Origin: Verrucomicrobiota bacterium
GTDB taxonomy: Bacteria; Verrucomicrobiota; Verrucomicrobiia; Chthoniobacterales; JAFAMB01
Direction of reading: 5' to 3'
DNA length: 45,592 nucleotides
NCBI GenBank assembly: GCA_019247695.1
Contig: JAFBAP010000141.1
Location: 1 to 45,592, forward strand
Numbering within the stretch: the stretch's first letter is position 1; every line of letters starts with the position of its first letter. The notes beneath the pieces are model-generated. The model was not told where the DNA came from. It ran no database searches and saw nothing but the letters and a program-made list of their open reading frames with translations. Both the position numbers and the translations under genes were made by a program. Shown piece after piece: positions 11,019-40,940 of this stretch.

Positions 11019-12017
11019 ATGAGGATTCGCGTTCCCGCATACAAAACGTCCGCAGCGATCGTCGATGCGTTGCAACGACGATCCGGACCGGTTGCTCGCC
11101 TCCTGTGCAGGCTCCTGTACCCCAACCACATGAAGCGCCCGTGGAACGGACCAACGATTGAGCTGGGGCGCCCCGCGGCCCTGGGCGACGTGCTGATGTG
11201 CACGCCGGTGCTGCGCGAATTGAAGCGCCGCAACCCGCAACGTCGTATCCGCTTCTACACGGATTACGGGCCGCTGGTGAAGGGTTTGCCCTACATCGAT
11301 GAGGTCCTGCCCTACGACCGCAGGCCTGCCAACATTCTCGAACTGGGTTACGAGCACGCCGTGCCGCCCGAGGTGCACATTTCGCGGATCATCGGCGACA
11401 AACTTGGTCTCAAGCTGACCGACACCCGGCCGGATTGCATCATTCGGAGCGATCTGGTCGAGGGTTATCGGAAAACGTTGGCCCAACTGCCTGCCCCACG
11501 CATCGTTTTCCTGCGCCGCGCCAGTGTCTGGACACCGAACAAAACCTGGCCCGACCCGAACTGGGTGACGCTGATCAACTCGGTGGCGCGCAAGGCTGCC
11601 ATGATCGAGATCGGACAAAAAGATGCGGCTGCCGGAACCATCGCCAGCCCGAATTATGTCGATCTGCGGGGAGAGACATCACTGGAGGAACTGGTGGCAC
11701 TAGTTGCGGCCTCTGACCTCTACGTCGGACCCGTTTCGGGGCCAATGCACATCGCCGTGAGCGTCGGAACCCCGTCGGTGACGATCTGCGGTGGTTATGA
11801 AAGCCCCCGCGGCTTACAGCACGCTCCGGACCTACAGAGCACCCCTAACGTATTTCTCTCTTCAGATCTGCCCTGTGCTCCCTGCTGGCTGCGCGAACCG
11901 TGCCCGATCGGTTTAAAGTGCCTGAACGCAATCTCGCCCGCGCAGGTGGAGAAGGCCATGGACGGCGTACTTGCCGCTCATGCCCCGGTCACCGCGACTG
12001 CAATCGCAAGAAGTTGA
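11019..12017 (+). CDS. Glycosyltransferase family 9 (heptosyltransferase-like), copy 2
   Basis: A 332-residue GT9 protein, roughly 70% identical by eye to the copy at 20-1015. Shared features are ALGDVLMCTPVLRE, the KGLPYIDEVLP segment, RRASVWTPNK, the donor-site GPVSGPMHIAVSVGT and the C-x2-C-x5-C-x5-C cluster near the C-terminus. The two differ mainly in the first 45 residues and at the C-terminus. The gene follows a 118 bp spacer. Divergence suggests an old duplication, perhaps with each copy adding a residue at a different position of the glycan. Confidence 0.9.
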   Translation: MRIRVPAYKTSAAIVDALQRRSGPVARLLCRLLYPNHMKRPWNGPTIELGRPAALGDVLMCTPVLRELKRRNPQRRIRFYTDYGPLVKGLPYIDEVLPYDRRPANILELGYEHAVPPEVHISRIIGDKLGLKLTDTRPDCIIRSDLVEGYRKTLAQLPAPRIVFLRRASVWTPNKTWPDPNWVTLINSVARKAAMIEIGQKDAAAGTIASPNYVDLRGETSLEELVALVAASDLYVGPVSGPMHIAVSVGTPSVTICGGYESPRGLQHAPDLQSTPNVFLSSDLPCAPCWLREPCPIGLKCLNAISPAQVEKAMDGVLAAHAPVTATAIARS

Positions 12018-12097: not shown

Positions 12098-13045
12098 ATG
12101 TCCATTAAAATAGGATTTGCAATCGTTTCGCATAATCATCCGGAGCAACTTCGCCATCTGGTGGCAACGCTCACCGGGATGTTCGATGGGCCTTCCATTG
12201 TGTGCCATCACCATTTCGGCAGATGTCCGCTTCGCCCGGAGGATTTCCCAAGCAACGTGCGCTTTGTCGTGCCGCACATCGATGCCAGGTGGGGCCACGT
12301 CAGCCTGCCGTTGGCCGCGTTGAGCGCGCTCAGGCTGCTGAGGCAGTATGGACAGCCGGACTGGTTTTTTCTTTTAAGCGGCAGCGATTACCCGGTACGG
12401 CCGGCGGATGAGATCACCAACGATCTTTCCGTCACCGATTATGACGCTTTCCTGGACCACCGTGAAATCCTGTATAACGCGGTCCCGCCTGGCCAACTGT
12501 CCCGGTACGGGTTCGGACGTCCTGAGTGGATCCCTTTGGCCTACGACAGGTACTGCGCCTATCGTTTCCGGTTGATCTACCCATCGCGAGCGCTCCTGTA
12601 TTCAGGTTCTTTTCCATTTTGGAAGAGGCCTTTTCTCATCCGTAAGCCCGGACTGATCCGTTTGATCGAATGGTTTCAGCCCCGGTTAAGGGCGTGTCGT
12701 CCTGCGAAGATTTATGGCGGGGATTTCTGGTTTCACGCCAATCGAAAAACCATCGACCGGCTGCTGGATTCGCCTCTGGAGAAACTCGCCCGCTACTATC
12801 AAAACATTTACGTTCCTGAGGAATCATTCCTGCACACGGCATTGTGCAATCACGCCGGCCTCCGGATCTGTGCGGATCACAAGCGCTACGAAGACTGGAG
12901 CCGCGACGAACCCCATCCGAAATGGCTTGAGGAGTCGGACGTGCCGAAGATCCGTGCATCCGGCGCCTACTTCGCCAGGAAATTCCGGCCGGACGGGATC
13001 GTGCGAAGGTTAATCGACGAGGAGGCGCTGCGGATCTCCAGTTAA
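12098..13045 (+). CDS. Core-2/I-branching-type glycosyltransferase (GT14-like), copy 1
   Basis: A 315-residue protein resembling the beta-1,6-N-acetylglucosaminyltransferase/xylosyltransferase fold of GT14. The N-terminus is IGFAIVSHNHPEQL. The family-typical central segment WFFLLSGSDYPVRP lies near residues 88-101, followed by FLDHRE. The region YGGDFWFHANRK (about 206-217) and the ESFLHTALCNH segment (about 245-255) fit the catalytic-acid and acceptor region of GT14 enzymes. GT14 enzymes lack a DxD motif and form branches on existing glycans. The closest neighbour is a second copy 17 bp downstream. The donor is unknown. Confidence 0.82.
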   Translation: MSIKIGFAIVSHNHPEQLRHLVATLTGMFDGPSIVCHHHFGRCPLRPEDFPSNVRFVVPHIDARWGHVSLPLAALSALRLLRQYGQPDWFFLLSGSDYPVRPADEITNDLSVTDYDAFLDHREILYNAVPPGQLSRYGFGRPEWIPLAYDRYCAYRFRLIYPSRALLYSGSFPFWKRPFLIRKPGLIRLIEWFQPRLRACRPAKIYGGDFWFHANRKTIDRLLDSPLEKLARYYQNIYVPEESFLHTALCNHAGLRICADHKRYEDWSRDEPHPKWLEESDVPKIRASGAYFARKFRPDGIVRRLIDEEALRISS

Positions 13046-13062: not shown

Positions 13063-14013
13063 ATGTCGGTTAAAGTCGGATTCGCCATCGTCTCGCACAA
13101 TCACCCGGAGCAACTGTTCCGCCTTGTCAGAACGCTCAACGCGATGTTCGACGCGCCTCCGATTGCGTGTAACCACAACTTCAGCATGTGTTCGTTGCAG
13201 CCGGAGATTTTTCCCGGCAACGTACGATTCGTCATTCCGCACGTTAACGCGCGGTGGGGTCACATCAGTATTCCCCTGGCGGCCTTGAGTGCGCTTCGGC
13301 TCGTGAGGCAGCATGGACAGCCTGACTGGTTTGTCTTGTTGAGCGGCAGCGATTATCCGGTGCGGCCGGCCCACGAAATCATGCATGACCTGTCCACGAC
13401 GGGGTACGATGCGTTTCTGGACCACCGTGAGGTTCGTCTCAATTCGCCGTCACCGTCCCCGGCCGGCCCGGTAGTCCGGCACGGATACGAACGCCCGGAA
13501 TGGGTCGGTGAGGCATACCGCAGATACTGCGCCTATTGTTTCTGTCTACCTTGGCCTTCGCCGAAGCGCCTGCTTTCAGGTGGTTTGCCGTTCTGGAAGA
13601 GGCGAGTTCCCATCCGCCATCCCGGGTTGATCCGGATGATTGAACGGCTCCAACCCCGGTTGACGGTTTGCCGGCCGCCGAAGATTTTCGCGGGGGATTT
13701 TTGGTTTGAGGCGAATCGGAAGGCCATCGATTGGCTGCTGGATCCTTCCTTGGAGAAGCTGGTACGTTTCTACGAGAGAAAACACATTCCTGACGAATCC
13801 ATTTTCCATACGGCGCTTTGCAATCACACGGCTTTAGGCATCTGCGCGGATAACAAGCGGTACGCAGACTGGACGGGCGGCGGATCGCATCCCAAGTGGC
13901 TCGACCTCTCCGATGTGCCAAGGATAATTGCCTCCGGGGCGCATTTCGCCAGGAAGTTCCTGCCCGGCGGCAGGGTACAAGACTATATCGATAGGAAATT
14001 GTTACAGCTATGA
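13063..14013 (+). CDS. Core-2/I-branching-type glycosyltransferase (GT14-like), copy 2
   Basis: A 316-residue paralogue of the preceding gene, roughly 60% identical by eye and collinear along its whole length. It keeps VGFAIVSHNHPEQL, WFVLLSGSDYPVRP, FLDHREV, AGDFWFEANRK and ESIFHTALCNH. The tandem arrangement with a 17 bp gap implies local duplication followed by divergence. Copy 1 has His and copy 2 has Glu in the FWF(H/E)ANRK motif, which could change donor or acceptor choice. It is the last plus-strand gene of the glycan cluster and converges with the hddC-like gene 38 bp away. Confidence 0.82.
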   Translation: MSVKVGFAIVSHNHPEQLFRLVRTLNAMFDAPPIACNHNFSMCSLQPEIFPGNVRFVIPHVNARWGHISIPLAALSALRLVRQHGQPDWFVLLSGSDYPVRPAHEIMHDLSTTGYDAFLDHREVRLNSPSPSPAGPVVRHGYERPEWVGEAYRRYCAYCFCLPWPSPKRLLSGGLPFWKRRVPIRHPGLIRMIERLQPRLTVCRPPKIFAGDFWFEANRKAIDWLLDPSLEKLVRFYERKHIPDESIFHTALCNHTALGICADNKRYADWTGGGSHPKWLDLSDVPRIIASGAHFARKFLPGGRVQDYIDRKLLQL

Positions 14014-16324: not shown

Positions 16325-17494
16325 TTACGGCGCGATCCGCTCGACGATTTCGAATTTGCCGTCCTTGACCGTGATCACCAAGGCCGGTTTCGACGCGTTC
16401 CGTTGCGGGTCAAATGAAATGCGACCCGTAACCCCGGGGCAATCCCGGGTCTGCGCGAGAGCGCTCCGGATCGTCTCCGAATCGATTTTGCCGGTTACGC
16501 GCTCGATTGCGCCGGTGAGGAGCATGGCCGCGTCGTAACCGAGTGCACCGAAGGTGTCCGGTATCTGCCCATATTTTTGACGGTAAGCCTGCACGAACCG
16601 CTGCACCGCCGGGGCCGGGTCGTCAGGTGAGAAATGGTTCGTGAAGTAGGTATTTTCGGCCGCCTTACCCGCGACCGACAGCAGGGTCTGGTTCGCCCAA
16701 CCATCACAGCCGAGCACTGGAAACGTCATCCCAAACTGGCGGAGCTGCTTCAGAATCAGAGCGACTTCAGCGTAGTATCCCGGTACGTAAAGCGCATCGG
16801 GTTTCACCGCGCGGATGGCGGTAAGCTGGGCCCGGAAGTCGGTGTCACCGGTCGAATAACTTTGCTCGCGCACGATCGCGCCGCCAAGCCGGGTGAATTC
16901 CTCTTTGAAAAACCGCGCCAAGTCTACGCTGTAATCCTGCTTCACATCGGTGAGGATGGCGAGCTTTTGCACTTTTAACCGGTCGTGCGCAAACCTGGCA
17001 ATGACCCGGCCTTGGAACTCGTCGAGAAAACAAACCCGAAAAACGCAGTCACCGATCTCCGTGATGCGCGGGTTGGTCGCGCTCGGGGTGATCATCGGCA
17101 CCCGGGCCTGCTGGGCAATCGGGGCCGACTCCAGCGTGGCGGAGGAAGTCGCGTCGCCCAGGATGGCAAGCACATGATCCTGCGTGATCAACTTGCGGAC
17201 CGCGGTGGCGCTCTGGCCCGGCTTGGACTGGTCGTCCTCGGAGATAACGTCGATCTGTTGCCCTGAAATTCCGCCGTTCGCGTTTACCTGCTCAAGAGCA
17301 AGCGTAATCCCATTGTGACAACCGATGCCGAACTGCGAAACGCCACCACTCAACGGGTCGACCTCACCCAGATGAATCTGGGCGGTGCCGGGCAAAGCGA
17401 ATGCCACAAATGAAAAAATGCCACGAATGCCACAAATCAGGACATGCCACAAATGGCGGAATCCTGGGGTTGCGGCTTTTATCCCGGATTGCAT
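16325..17494 (-). CDS. Leu/Ile/Val-type ABC transporter substrate-binding protein with repeat-derived N-terminus
   Basis: A 389-residue type-I periplasmic binding protein (Peripla_BP_6 type). The mature part starts IHLGEVDPLSGG, continues with GITLALEQVNANGG and VRKLITQDHVLAILG, and has the TDVKQDYSVDL segment mid-protein. It is about half identical to the neighbour at 17602-18753. It should bind a small molecule, classically a branched-chain amino acid, in the periplasm. No permease or ATPase genes are adjacent. Residues 13-32 (RHLWHVLICGIRG and on) are encoded by family A repeat DNA at 17400-17460. They supply a hydrophobic stretch that could serve as signal peptide, ending in ALPGTAQ. ATG 17494 lacks a good ribosome-binding site, so the start is uncertain. 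Confidence 0.8.
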   Translation of the reverse strand: MQSGIKAATPGFRHLWHVLICGIRGIFSFVAFALPGTAQIHLGEVDPLSGGVSQFGIGCHNGITLALEQVNANGGISGQQIDVISEDDQSKPGQSATAVRKLITQDHVLAILGDATSSATLESAPIAQQARVPMITPSATNPRITEIGDCVFRVCFLDEFQGRVIARFAHDRLKVQKLAILTDVKQDYSVDLARFFKEEFTRLGGAIVREQSYSTGDTDFRAQLTAIRAVKPDALYVPGYYAEVALILKQLRQFGMTFPVLGCDGWANQTLLSVAGKAAENTYFTNHFSPDDPAPAVQRFVQAYRQKYGQIPDTFGALGYDAAMLLTGAIERVTGKIDSETIRSALAQTRDCPGVTGRISFDPQRNASKPALVITVKDGKFEIVERIAP

Positions 17495-17601
17495 TCCCGG
17501 CAGTTTTTCGATTGCGGCATTTGTTCGCTTCCGCGGTGGGTGAAGTGCCGCAAATCAAGCTCAGTCATTTGTGGCATTTCACCCGTGGCATTCCGCCTGC
17601 G
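17400..17601. repeat. Family A repeats between the two binding-protein genes
   Basis: Left block 17400-17459 has several ATGCCAC(A/G)AATG units reading on the plus strand. Right block about 17560-17596 has CATTTGTGGCATT and CGTGGCATTCC, the inverse orientation. Together they form an imperfect inverted pair. The right block starts, in the sense of the upstream gene, 10 bp after its stop codon. The left block lies inside the next gene. Confidence 0.75.
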
Positions 17602-18753
17602 TTAGCCCTTCGGCGGTTTGGCCGAACCCTTCGGCGGTTCGATCGTCTCCCAGTAATGTACCCCGCCATCTTTGATGGTAAGAATCACGGCCGACTTGGT
17701 GGCATTACGCTCCGGGTTGATGGTGATGCTGCCTGAAACGCCCGGAAAATCTCTGGTGTCAGCGATCGCGTCACGGATTTTAGCCGGATCCGGTCCACCG
17801 GCCCGCTTGATGGCGTCGGCCAGGAGTTTGACGGCGTCGTAACCGAGCGCGGCAAATGCATCGGGCATGGCGTTGTACTTCTTCTGGTACTTTTGCACAA
17901 ACGTCTGCACAGCCGGCGATTTATCCTCGTTGGAGTAGTGATTGGAAAAATAAGCGCCCTCGATCGCCTTGCCGCCCACCGGGATCAACGAAGAGCCATC
18001 CCAACCGTCTCCGCCCACGAAAGTCGCCTTGATCCCGAACTGCCTGGCTTGTTTGGCGATCAATGAGGCTTCGGGATAGTAGCCGGTAATGATGATCACG
18101 TCGGGATTTGCCGCCTTGAGATCGGTGAGTTGGGCTCGAAAATCTTTATCGCCGGAGCTGTAGCTCTGCTCACGAACGATCTGTGCGCTGTGTTTCTCGA
18201 GGTAATTCTTTGCGATCCCGGTCAAACCGACGCTGTAGTCCTGCTTCACGTCGGTCAGAAAAGCGACTTTCGTCTTTTTCAATTTCTCCAGGACAAACCG
18301 GGCGATCACCACGGCCTGAAAATCATCGGTAAAACAAACCCGGAAAACGTAATCGCCCGTTTGGGTGACCCTGGGATTCGTCGCGGCGGTGGCGATCAGC
18401 GGGATCTTGGCCGCTTGAGCAATCGGGGCGGCTTCCAGCGTTTTCGAAGACGCGACCTCACCGATCAACGCGATCACGTGGTCCTGGGAAATCAACTTGC
18501 GCACGATGGTCGTCGTTTCACCCTGCTTGGTTTGGTTGTCCTCAACAATGAGGTCGATCTTCTTGCCCAGGACACCTCCGGTATCATTGATTTCCTGCAC
18601 CGCTAATTGGACCCCGTTATTTTGCGAGATTCCGAAGCTGGCGTTATCGCCGGTCAAGGAACCAAACTCGCCAATTTTGATCGTGTCCTGGGCCAGGGCC
18701 GTGGCGGCTAGCGCAATGCCCAGGAAAACCGCGGATAGAAACCGACGCTTCAT
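17602..18753 (-). CDS. Leu/Ile/Val-type ABC transporter substrate-binding protein
   Basis: A 383-residue periplasmic binding protein of the LivK/Peripla_BP_6 type. A clear signal peptide, MKRRFLSAVFLGIALAATA then LAQ, precedes the mature start DTIKIGEFGSLTG. Family segments are NGVQLAVQEINDTGG, VRKLISQDHVIALIG, TNPRVTQTGDYVFRVCF and FLTDVKQDYSVGL. It ends in a Pro/Lys-rich tail (PPKGSAKPPKG). The frame is open to 18855, but ATG 18753 begins exactly at the signal peptide. It is the first gene of a two-gene minus-strand unit with its paralogue, divergent from fabD across 143 bp. Transport partners are not in the window; a sensing role is possible. Confidence 0.9.
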   Translation of the reverse strand: MKRRFLSAVFLGIALAATALAQDTIKIGEFGSLTGDNASFGISQNNGVQLAVQEINDTGGVLGKKIDLIVEDNQTKQGETTTIVRKLISQDHVIALIGEVASSKTLEAAPIAQAAKIPLIATAATNPRVTQTGDYVFRVCFTDDFQAVVIARFVLEKLKKTKVAFLTDVKQDYSVGLTGIAKNYLEKHSAQIVREQSYSSGDKDFRAQLTDLKAANPDVIIITGYYPEASLIAKQARQFGIKATFVGGDGWDGSSLIPVGGKAIEGAYFSNHYSNEDKSPAVQTFVQKYQKKYNAMPDAFAALGYDAVKLLADAIKRAGGPDPAKIRDAIADTRDFPGVSGSITINPERNATKSAVILTIKDGGVHYWETIEPPKGSAKPPKG

Positions 18754-40726: not shown

Positions 40727-40940
40727 AATGCCGCGACGCAACAATGCCACAAATGCCACAAGTGAAAAAATGCCACAAATGACCGACCCCGTTAGGAAGG
40801 TTCTCCGGTCTTCGTACTCGCAGCCTTTCTAAAAAAACAGCCTGCAAATGGAATACTGCCAGGAGCGCCGCAGATGATGGACCGCCATTTGTGGCATTTT
40901 TTCACTTGTGGCATTTGTGGCATTGTTCCGTCGTGGCATT
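40727..40940. repeat. Family A perfect inverted repeat upstream of fabZ-like gene
   Basis: The 41 bp arm at 40741-40781 (start ACAATGCCACAAATGCCACA) is perfectly complementary to 40886-40926. With two mismatches the stem extends outwards to 40727 and 40940, about 55 bp in all, around a 104 nt loop. In the sense of the MFS gene the right arm starts 2 bp after the stop codon. The left arm reaches to within 6 bp of the fabZ-like start. Confidence 0.9.

Follow-up and report, generated by a model that had tools for sequence, protein, structure and literature searches.

A dispersed repeat arm as the probable source of most of a binding-protein signal peptide in a Verrucomicrobiota bacterium

An arm of a dispersed hairpin repeat probably replaced most of the signal peptide of PBP2, a Peripla_BP_6 binding protein, which would still be exported. 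As a whole, this reading of the sequences is the best explanation we can offer, and we consider it quite likely. PBP2 and its neighbor PBP1 are tandem, co-directional genes on the minus strand of the window (the whole stretch of 45,592 nucleotides analyzed). The features concerned are the following.

16325..17494, minus strand: PBP2, second binding-protein gene, Peripla_BP_6; intact ORF of 389 aa
17381..17494, minus strand: PBP2 signal-peptide codons 1–38; cleavage site predicted from the -3/-1 rule and the sister-orthologue alignment
17401..17454, minus strand: right (3') arm; its four ATT(T/C)GTGGCAT copies account for most of the codons of HLWHVLICGIRGIFSFVAF
17381..17597, minus strand: inverted-repeat spacer, folding into long RNA stems according to fold energy and pairing
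17568..17591, minus strand: left-arm copies ATGCCACGGG and ATGCCACAAA, just past the upstream stop codon
17602..18753, minus strand: PBP1, first binding-protein gene, Peripla_BP_6; start taken as MKRRFLSAVFLG at 18753

The genome carrying the window (G000; the window lies on contig 141) is a draft of 191 contigs and 5.19 Mb. Its repeat and gene statistics were obtained from sampled stretches amounting to 1.375 Mb (26.5%), and the repeat families were surveyed in 982 kb, comprising the window and 60 contig stretches. For comparison, we used the sister species (G001) and other genera of the same family (g2, g3, and g4); all of these genomes are many-contig drafts, mostly or all MAGs. Genes were called with a simple caller that scores codon usage, which biases its starts against repeats. 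Elsewhere in the window, duplicate genes lie in tandem at 12098-13045 and 13063-14013 (74% DNA identity across 300 nt), and a pair of ~500-nt segments (117-627 and 11131-11641; 73-76% identity) is separated by 11 kb.

The PBP2 N-terminus and its hairpin spacer

The PBP2 N-terminus reads MQSGIKAATPGFRHLWHVLICGIRGIFSFVAFALPGTA followed by QIHLGEV, with a predicted mature start at Q39. Residues 14–32 (HLWHVLICGIRGIFSFVAF, HLWH...FVAF) are largely translated from four copies of ATT(T/C)GTGGCAT, located at 17454-17444, 17437-17427, 17428-17418, and 17411-17401. A sequence-only reading had proposed that this N-terminus is a translation of family A repeat units, and the four copies were found where it had placed them. 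The sequence ATTTGTGGCATT occurred 76 times in 1.375 Mb of G000 (0 for the reversed control), and CATTTGTGGCATTT..TGTGGCATT gave 63 genome matches (control 0). A further pattern, CATTTGTGGCATTTTTC, was present in 54 copies in G000, 57 in G001, and 0 in seven other genomes of the family. The match of PBP2 to the repeat is far beyond chance. The repeat-built segment is also the sole signal-peptide-like N-terminus of PBP2, in line with its earlier description as the only hydrophobic stretch before IHLGEV. A repeat origin holds for most residues of the signal peptide but apparently not for its last part, ALPGTAQ, which aligns with ALPGFAQ of the sister orthologue and looks ancestral.

Signal peptides were scored with a home-made rule based on hydrophobicity, charge, and the -3 and -1 residues, which is no substitute for SignalP; by this rule, the PBP2 N-terminus obtained 3.83 (median of the signal-peptide-like genes, 3.77). 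Shuffled versions of the N-terminus attained this value in 1.65% of cases, and internal ATGs passed in 7.4% at any score and in 2.3% at 3.83. The n-region has a net positive charge (K6, R13, and R23) with no acidic residues before the core, and the core around IFSFVAFAL is uncharged, spans at least 9 residues, and has a mean Kyte-Doolittle value of 2.63. Small residues occupy positions -3 and -1 of the cleavage motif (G-T-A before Q; G-F-A before Q in the sister orthologue). These are characteristics of a type I Sec signal peptide. Two features count against a signal peptide: the hydrophobic run is broken by R23, and the n-region, at ~24 aa, is long. No clear ribosome-binding site was seen upstream of the PBP2 ATG at 17494. 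PBP2 is most likely still exported. PBP1 (18753-17602) carries the signal peptide MKRRFLSAVFLGIALAATALAQ, which is conserved and as ordinary as the sequence-only reading had it, and thus serves as an internal control.

Translation of PBP2 could instead begin farther downstream, at TTG 17395 or GTG 17407, in which case the protein would stay in the cytoplasm and the repeat would be a 5' leader only. We regard this as very unlikely. The start at 17395 was indeed the choice of our gene caller, and other genes start right after a repeat arm, but this choice comes from codon-usage scoring and is hence biased against repeats. Moreover, Peripla_BP_6 proteins act outside the cytoplasmic membrane, and both PBP1 and the family orthologues carry signal peptides.

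The repeat encodes signal-peptide residues, as proposed, but is not confined to them: the inverted repeat extends over the full spacer, as far back as the PBP1 stop codon (17602). RNA running from there to the end of the PBP2 signal-peptide codons folded at -102.2 kcal/mol (z -6.5, 0/200 shuffles). In the predicted fold, the PBP2 start codon (17494-17492) would be on the paired 5' side, its partner being 17427-17429 within the signal-peptide codons. For the spacers between PBP1 and the second gene, z was -6.7 in G008, -6.0 in G010, -5.6 in G006, -5.4 in G000, and -3.5 in G003; the values were weaker in G005 (-2.7), G002 (-2.2), G001 (-1.9), and G004 (-0.8). Control spacers gave z between -0.4 and +1.0 in five of six cases and -7.3 in the remaining one. 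The latter is the spacer between PBP2 and PBP3 of G005 (L069), a strongly folded inverted repeat unconnected to any signal peptide, the left arm of which contains GGCAAAGCGGGGACGCTTTGCC. The weak hairpins in G001, G004, and G002 and the folded control spacer of G005 count against our explanation.

Repeat families and arm polarity

Six repeat families were abundant in the 982-kb sample of G000: A (AATGCCACAAATG), B (CCGAACTCCGAACTC), C (CACGGCGAACACGGCG), D (GTAACGGGTAACGGG), E (CGCAGAACACGCAGA), and F (AATCTGTGTAATCTGTGGATG). They are degenerate, with periods of 7 and 9 nt. The pooled period peaks were at 7 and 9 in G000 and at 7, 14, and 21 in G008; family A itself looks like 9. With a degenerate mask applied to the 1.375 Mb, repeats covered 17.0% of the intergenic and 0.56% of the genic bases, a roughly 30-fold difference in density. 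A repeat of at least 24 nt was found in 40% of the convergent gaps as compared to 10% of the tandem or divergent gaps. Our searches of the open-licence literature brought up no paper describing these Verrucomicrobiota repeats.

The arms follow a fixed order. Each of the 39 inverted pairs kept the order of its family, and all six families were fixed in this respect, with a purine-rich left arm and a pyrimidine-rich right arm. Because of this order, genes start behind a right arm and end before a left arm: the arm closest to a gene start was the right one in 31 of 33 cases (31:2), and the arm closest to a stop was the left one in 103 of 110 (103:7), a polarity that is dictated by the hairpin layout and is therefore not an independent test. 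The same polarity was seen in clusters with one recognizable arm. Right arms of families A, C, E, and F contain a hydrophobic frame and the corresponding left arms are hydrophilic; the right arms of B and D are not hydrophobic. The right arm of family A has zero stops in three frames, reading FVAF, ICGI, or HLWH.

Several genes border on repeat arms in other ways. Four apparently cytosolic genes (L138:19232, L098:9737, L119:22, and L024:1332) start a few bases from a family-A right arm. In the window, a family-A inverted pair is present at 40740-40918, and an open frame coming from the repeat (LWHFFTCGICGIVA) enters a gene that probably starts with MDPIALGLPH after the arm. The open frames through a repeat arm in L134, L098, and window 40847 were not scored as signal peptides, because the likely start is just past the arm in each. 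In L096, an ordinary signal peptide belonging to the gene itself follows the arm, and the L014 candidate CGIFPLVAFVTFLPAAW was dropped since it lacks a usable start codon upstream. In the sampled G000 contigs, 1.8% of the bases in the last 60 nt of genes overlapped repeats, compared with 0.4% in gene interiors, so left arms may also extend C-termini with hydrophilic tails.

Recurrence among relatives and in further, apparently exported proteins

Orthologues gave a mixed picture that favors replacement. The g2 signal peptide contains no recognized repeats; that of G001 (MRRMIVLICGCATALALPGFAQ) differs from that of the window PBP2 and contains 12-mers of another dispersed repeat, family F. As background, any repeat 12-mer was present in 1.2% of interior coding windows. 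The G001 spacer is full of other repeats, and its signal peptide shares VLICG and ALPGxAQ with that of the window PBP2. Taken with the constraint on the mature domain, the comparison supports the earlier suggestion that a repeat insertion would have replaced the original signal sequence.

In g4, the second gene occupies the same operon position and belongs to a different paralogue clade than the window PBP2, so replacement tracks the position rather than the identity of the gene. Repeats were found in the second-gene signal peptide of four g4 species, where they make up the n-region but no more than a part of the hydrophobic core. G008 has a CTCAC array, the pattern of which (CACYTCTCACTTCTCAC) is present in 105 copies in G008, 58 in G010, 30 in G004, 4 in G006, and 0 in the other five genomes. 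G010 has CACCAATCACTAATCAC (15 copies), with an inverted partner directly behind PBP1. A 9-nt-period arm with an inverted partner is found in G006, and a TTTCAC array in G004. The G008 and G010 repeats are dispersed solely in g4. The second-gene signal peptides of G008, G006, and G003 hold an arm of an inverted repeat (inverted-repeat shuffles were few, 12 each). Copy searches gave zero copies of the G003 pattern and two of the G006 pattern in G006; these two are therefore inverted repeats and not established dispersed families. The g4-clade paralogues located away from PBP1 (C58b of G000 and the fourth genes of G003 and G005) have ordinary signal peptides.

Two other, apparently exported proteins show the same phenomenon. 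In an NAGPA-family gene (PF09992, phosphodiester glycosidase; G000 contig 64, 7101), the n-region is built from family D and the core from family A. The sister orthologue retains the repeat-built signal peptide with a net in-frame indel of 12 nt, and the g2–g4 orthologues have ordinary signal peptides; dN/dS was ~1.0 for the signal peptide and 0.25 for the mature part. The second is an unnamed, apparently exported protein of g4 (G008, G010, and G004), in which QSPITN(H/R)LS(L/R)LTF is encoded by ATCAC and CTCAC repeats. Its frame is kept across the three species with a 6-nt in-frame difference, and its G006 orthologue lacks the repeat-built signal peptide. Among the 1065 genes called in the G000 sample (26.5%), 313 had signal-peptide-like N-termini, and two of these were convincingly repeat-built (under 1%). 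Repeat-built signal peptides are occasional and recurrent, and not a general rule.

The sequence-only reading had also offered that PBP2 might be a broken paralogue, a reading that we reject in view of dN/dS and the unbroken frame. The mature part is 93% identical to that of G001 without gaps, with a dN/dS of 0.063 (0.081 for PBP1), and is under strong purifying selection. The Pfam domain is complete (PF13458: 3.9e-72, 244.2 bits against a curated cut-off of 31.7, profile 2-342/343). A broken or dying gene, in which the repeat removed the signal peptide and left an accidental open frame, would profit from the fact that family A is stop-free in three frames, making an open frame through repeats cheap, and many cytosolic-looking genes also show an open frame via an upstream arm. 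Nevertheless, the mature domain carries zero indels relative to G001, and the NAGPA-family and unnamed proteins held their frames across species despite length changes of 12 and 6 nt, which leaves the dying-gene account just as improbable as the downstream start. Similarly improbable is an ordinary signal peptide driven toward the repeat sequence without insertion by RNA-structure selection, the right arm pairing with the left: a hairpin at the operon position in most species despite unrelated sequences and the shared VLICG and ALPGxAQ would fit, but drift would hardly arrive at sequences identical to a repeat found throughout the genome (76 sampled copies as against 0 for the reversed control), and close species differ in the repeats used.

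Proposed mechanism and known systems

Replacement by a repeat arm may have proceeded as follows. The spacer between PBP1 and PBP2 would belong to a class of dispersed hairpin elements that are made of short degenerate repeats and are located mainly behind stop codons, where they presumably act as 3'-end hairpins of mRNA. The element would have come to fill the whole gap to the downstream gene, its right arm taking the place of the n-region, together with most of the h-region, of the former Sec signal peptide, and the ancestral c-region ALPGTAQ, as suggested by the sister orthologue, would have been left in place. The hybrid N-terminus may have been kept because signal peptides tolerate varied hydrophobic sequences and frame changes in the repeat can still encode hydrophobic residues. 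More speculatively, the hairpin may tune the translation of PBP2 relative to PBP1, in view of the predicted pairing between the start codon and signal-peptide codons. Hairpin spacer repeats might even amount to a permanent, renewable supply of Sec signal peptides in this family: exported proteins starting behind such an element could have their signal peptide overwritten, because the arm facing the gene start is pyrimidine-rich and in several families encodes hydrophobic residues, and the start-codon pairing would make the same sequence a translational control element. This is a tentative idea that we find possible and rather doubtful.

These cases outline a sequence-level route from spacer DNA to a functional protein segment. 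Several genes and species, with different repeats at one operon position and internal controls, provide natural replicates. Arm polarity and stop-free hydrophobic frames offer a reason for the replacement, and the old idea that many sequences can act as signal peptides becomes testable in nature. Annotation is affected as well: callers that depend on codon statistics may shorten such genes at the 5' end and label exported proteins as cytosolic.

The kind of event is already known; what is new, as far as the searched open literature shows, is its recurrence with several repeat families, together with the arm polarity and the effect of position. Cyanobacterial STRRs are short tandem repeats, mostly with a 7-bp unit, that lie between genes, including between hupS and hupL, and can form hairpins; they have been suggested to stabilize transcripts or to couple translation (PMC2670836). 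Our elements resemble them as short-period intergenic hairpin repeats, and the 7-nt tandem period applies to some families only; they differ in having both 7- and 9-nt periods, in their occurrence in Verrucomicrobiota, in their long inverted-repeat arms, and in an arm that is read as protein. REP elements are small high-copy palindromes of 20-40 bp with hypothesized roles in transcription termination or mRNA stabilization (PMC3733652); the present elements are longer, form periodic arrays, and have one arm read as protein. Set against MITEs and other mobile inverted-repeat elements, which are marked by terminal inverted repeats, target-site duplications, and a defined length, the present elements have inverted arms, but at a variable spacing. 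Rickettsia palindromic elements are dispersed palindromic repeats of ~150 bp, inserted in unrelated metabolic genes and translated in frame within otherwise normal genes, as described in a review (PMC10969869). In the present case, the arm becomes a 5'-end signal peptide, and the ~30-fold intergenic excess departs from insertion into coding sequences. The closest precedent for a repeat-derived signal peptide is a one-off, Yersinia RU-2, where the signal peptides of similar proteins from other genera are unrelated in sequence. RU-2 has a 168-bp unit and few reported loci, whereas the elements described here are short arrays with 7- and 9-nt periods from several unrelated families, with repeated events, fixed polarity, cross-species retention, and a position effect.
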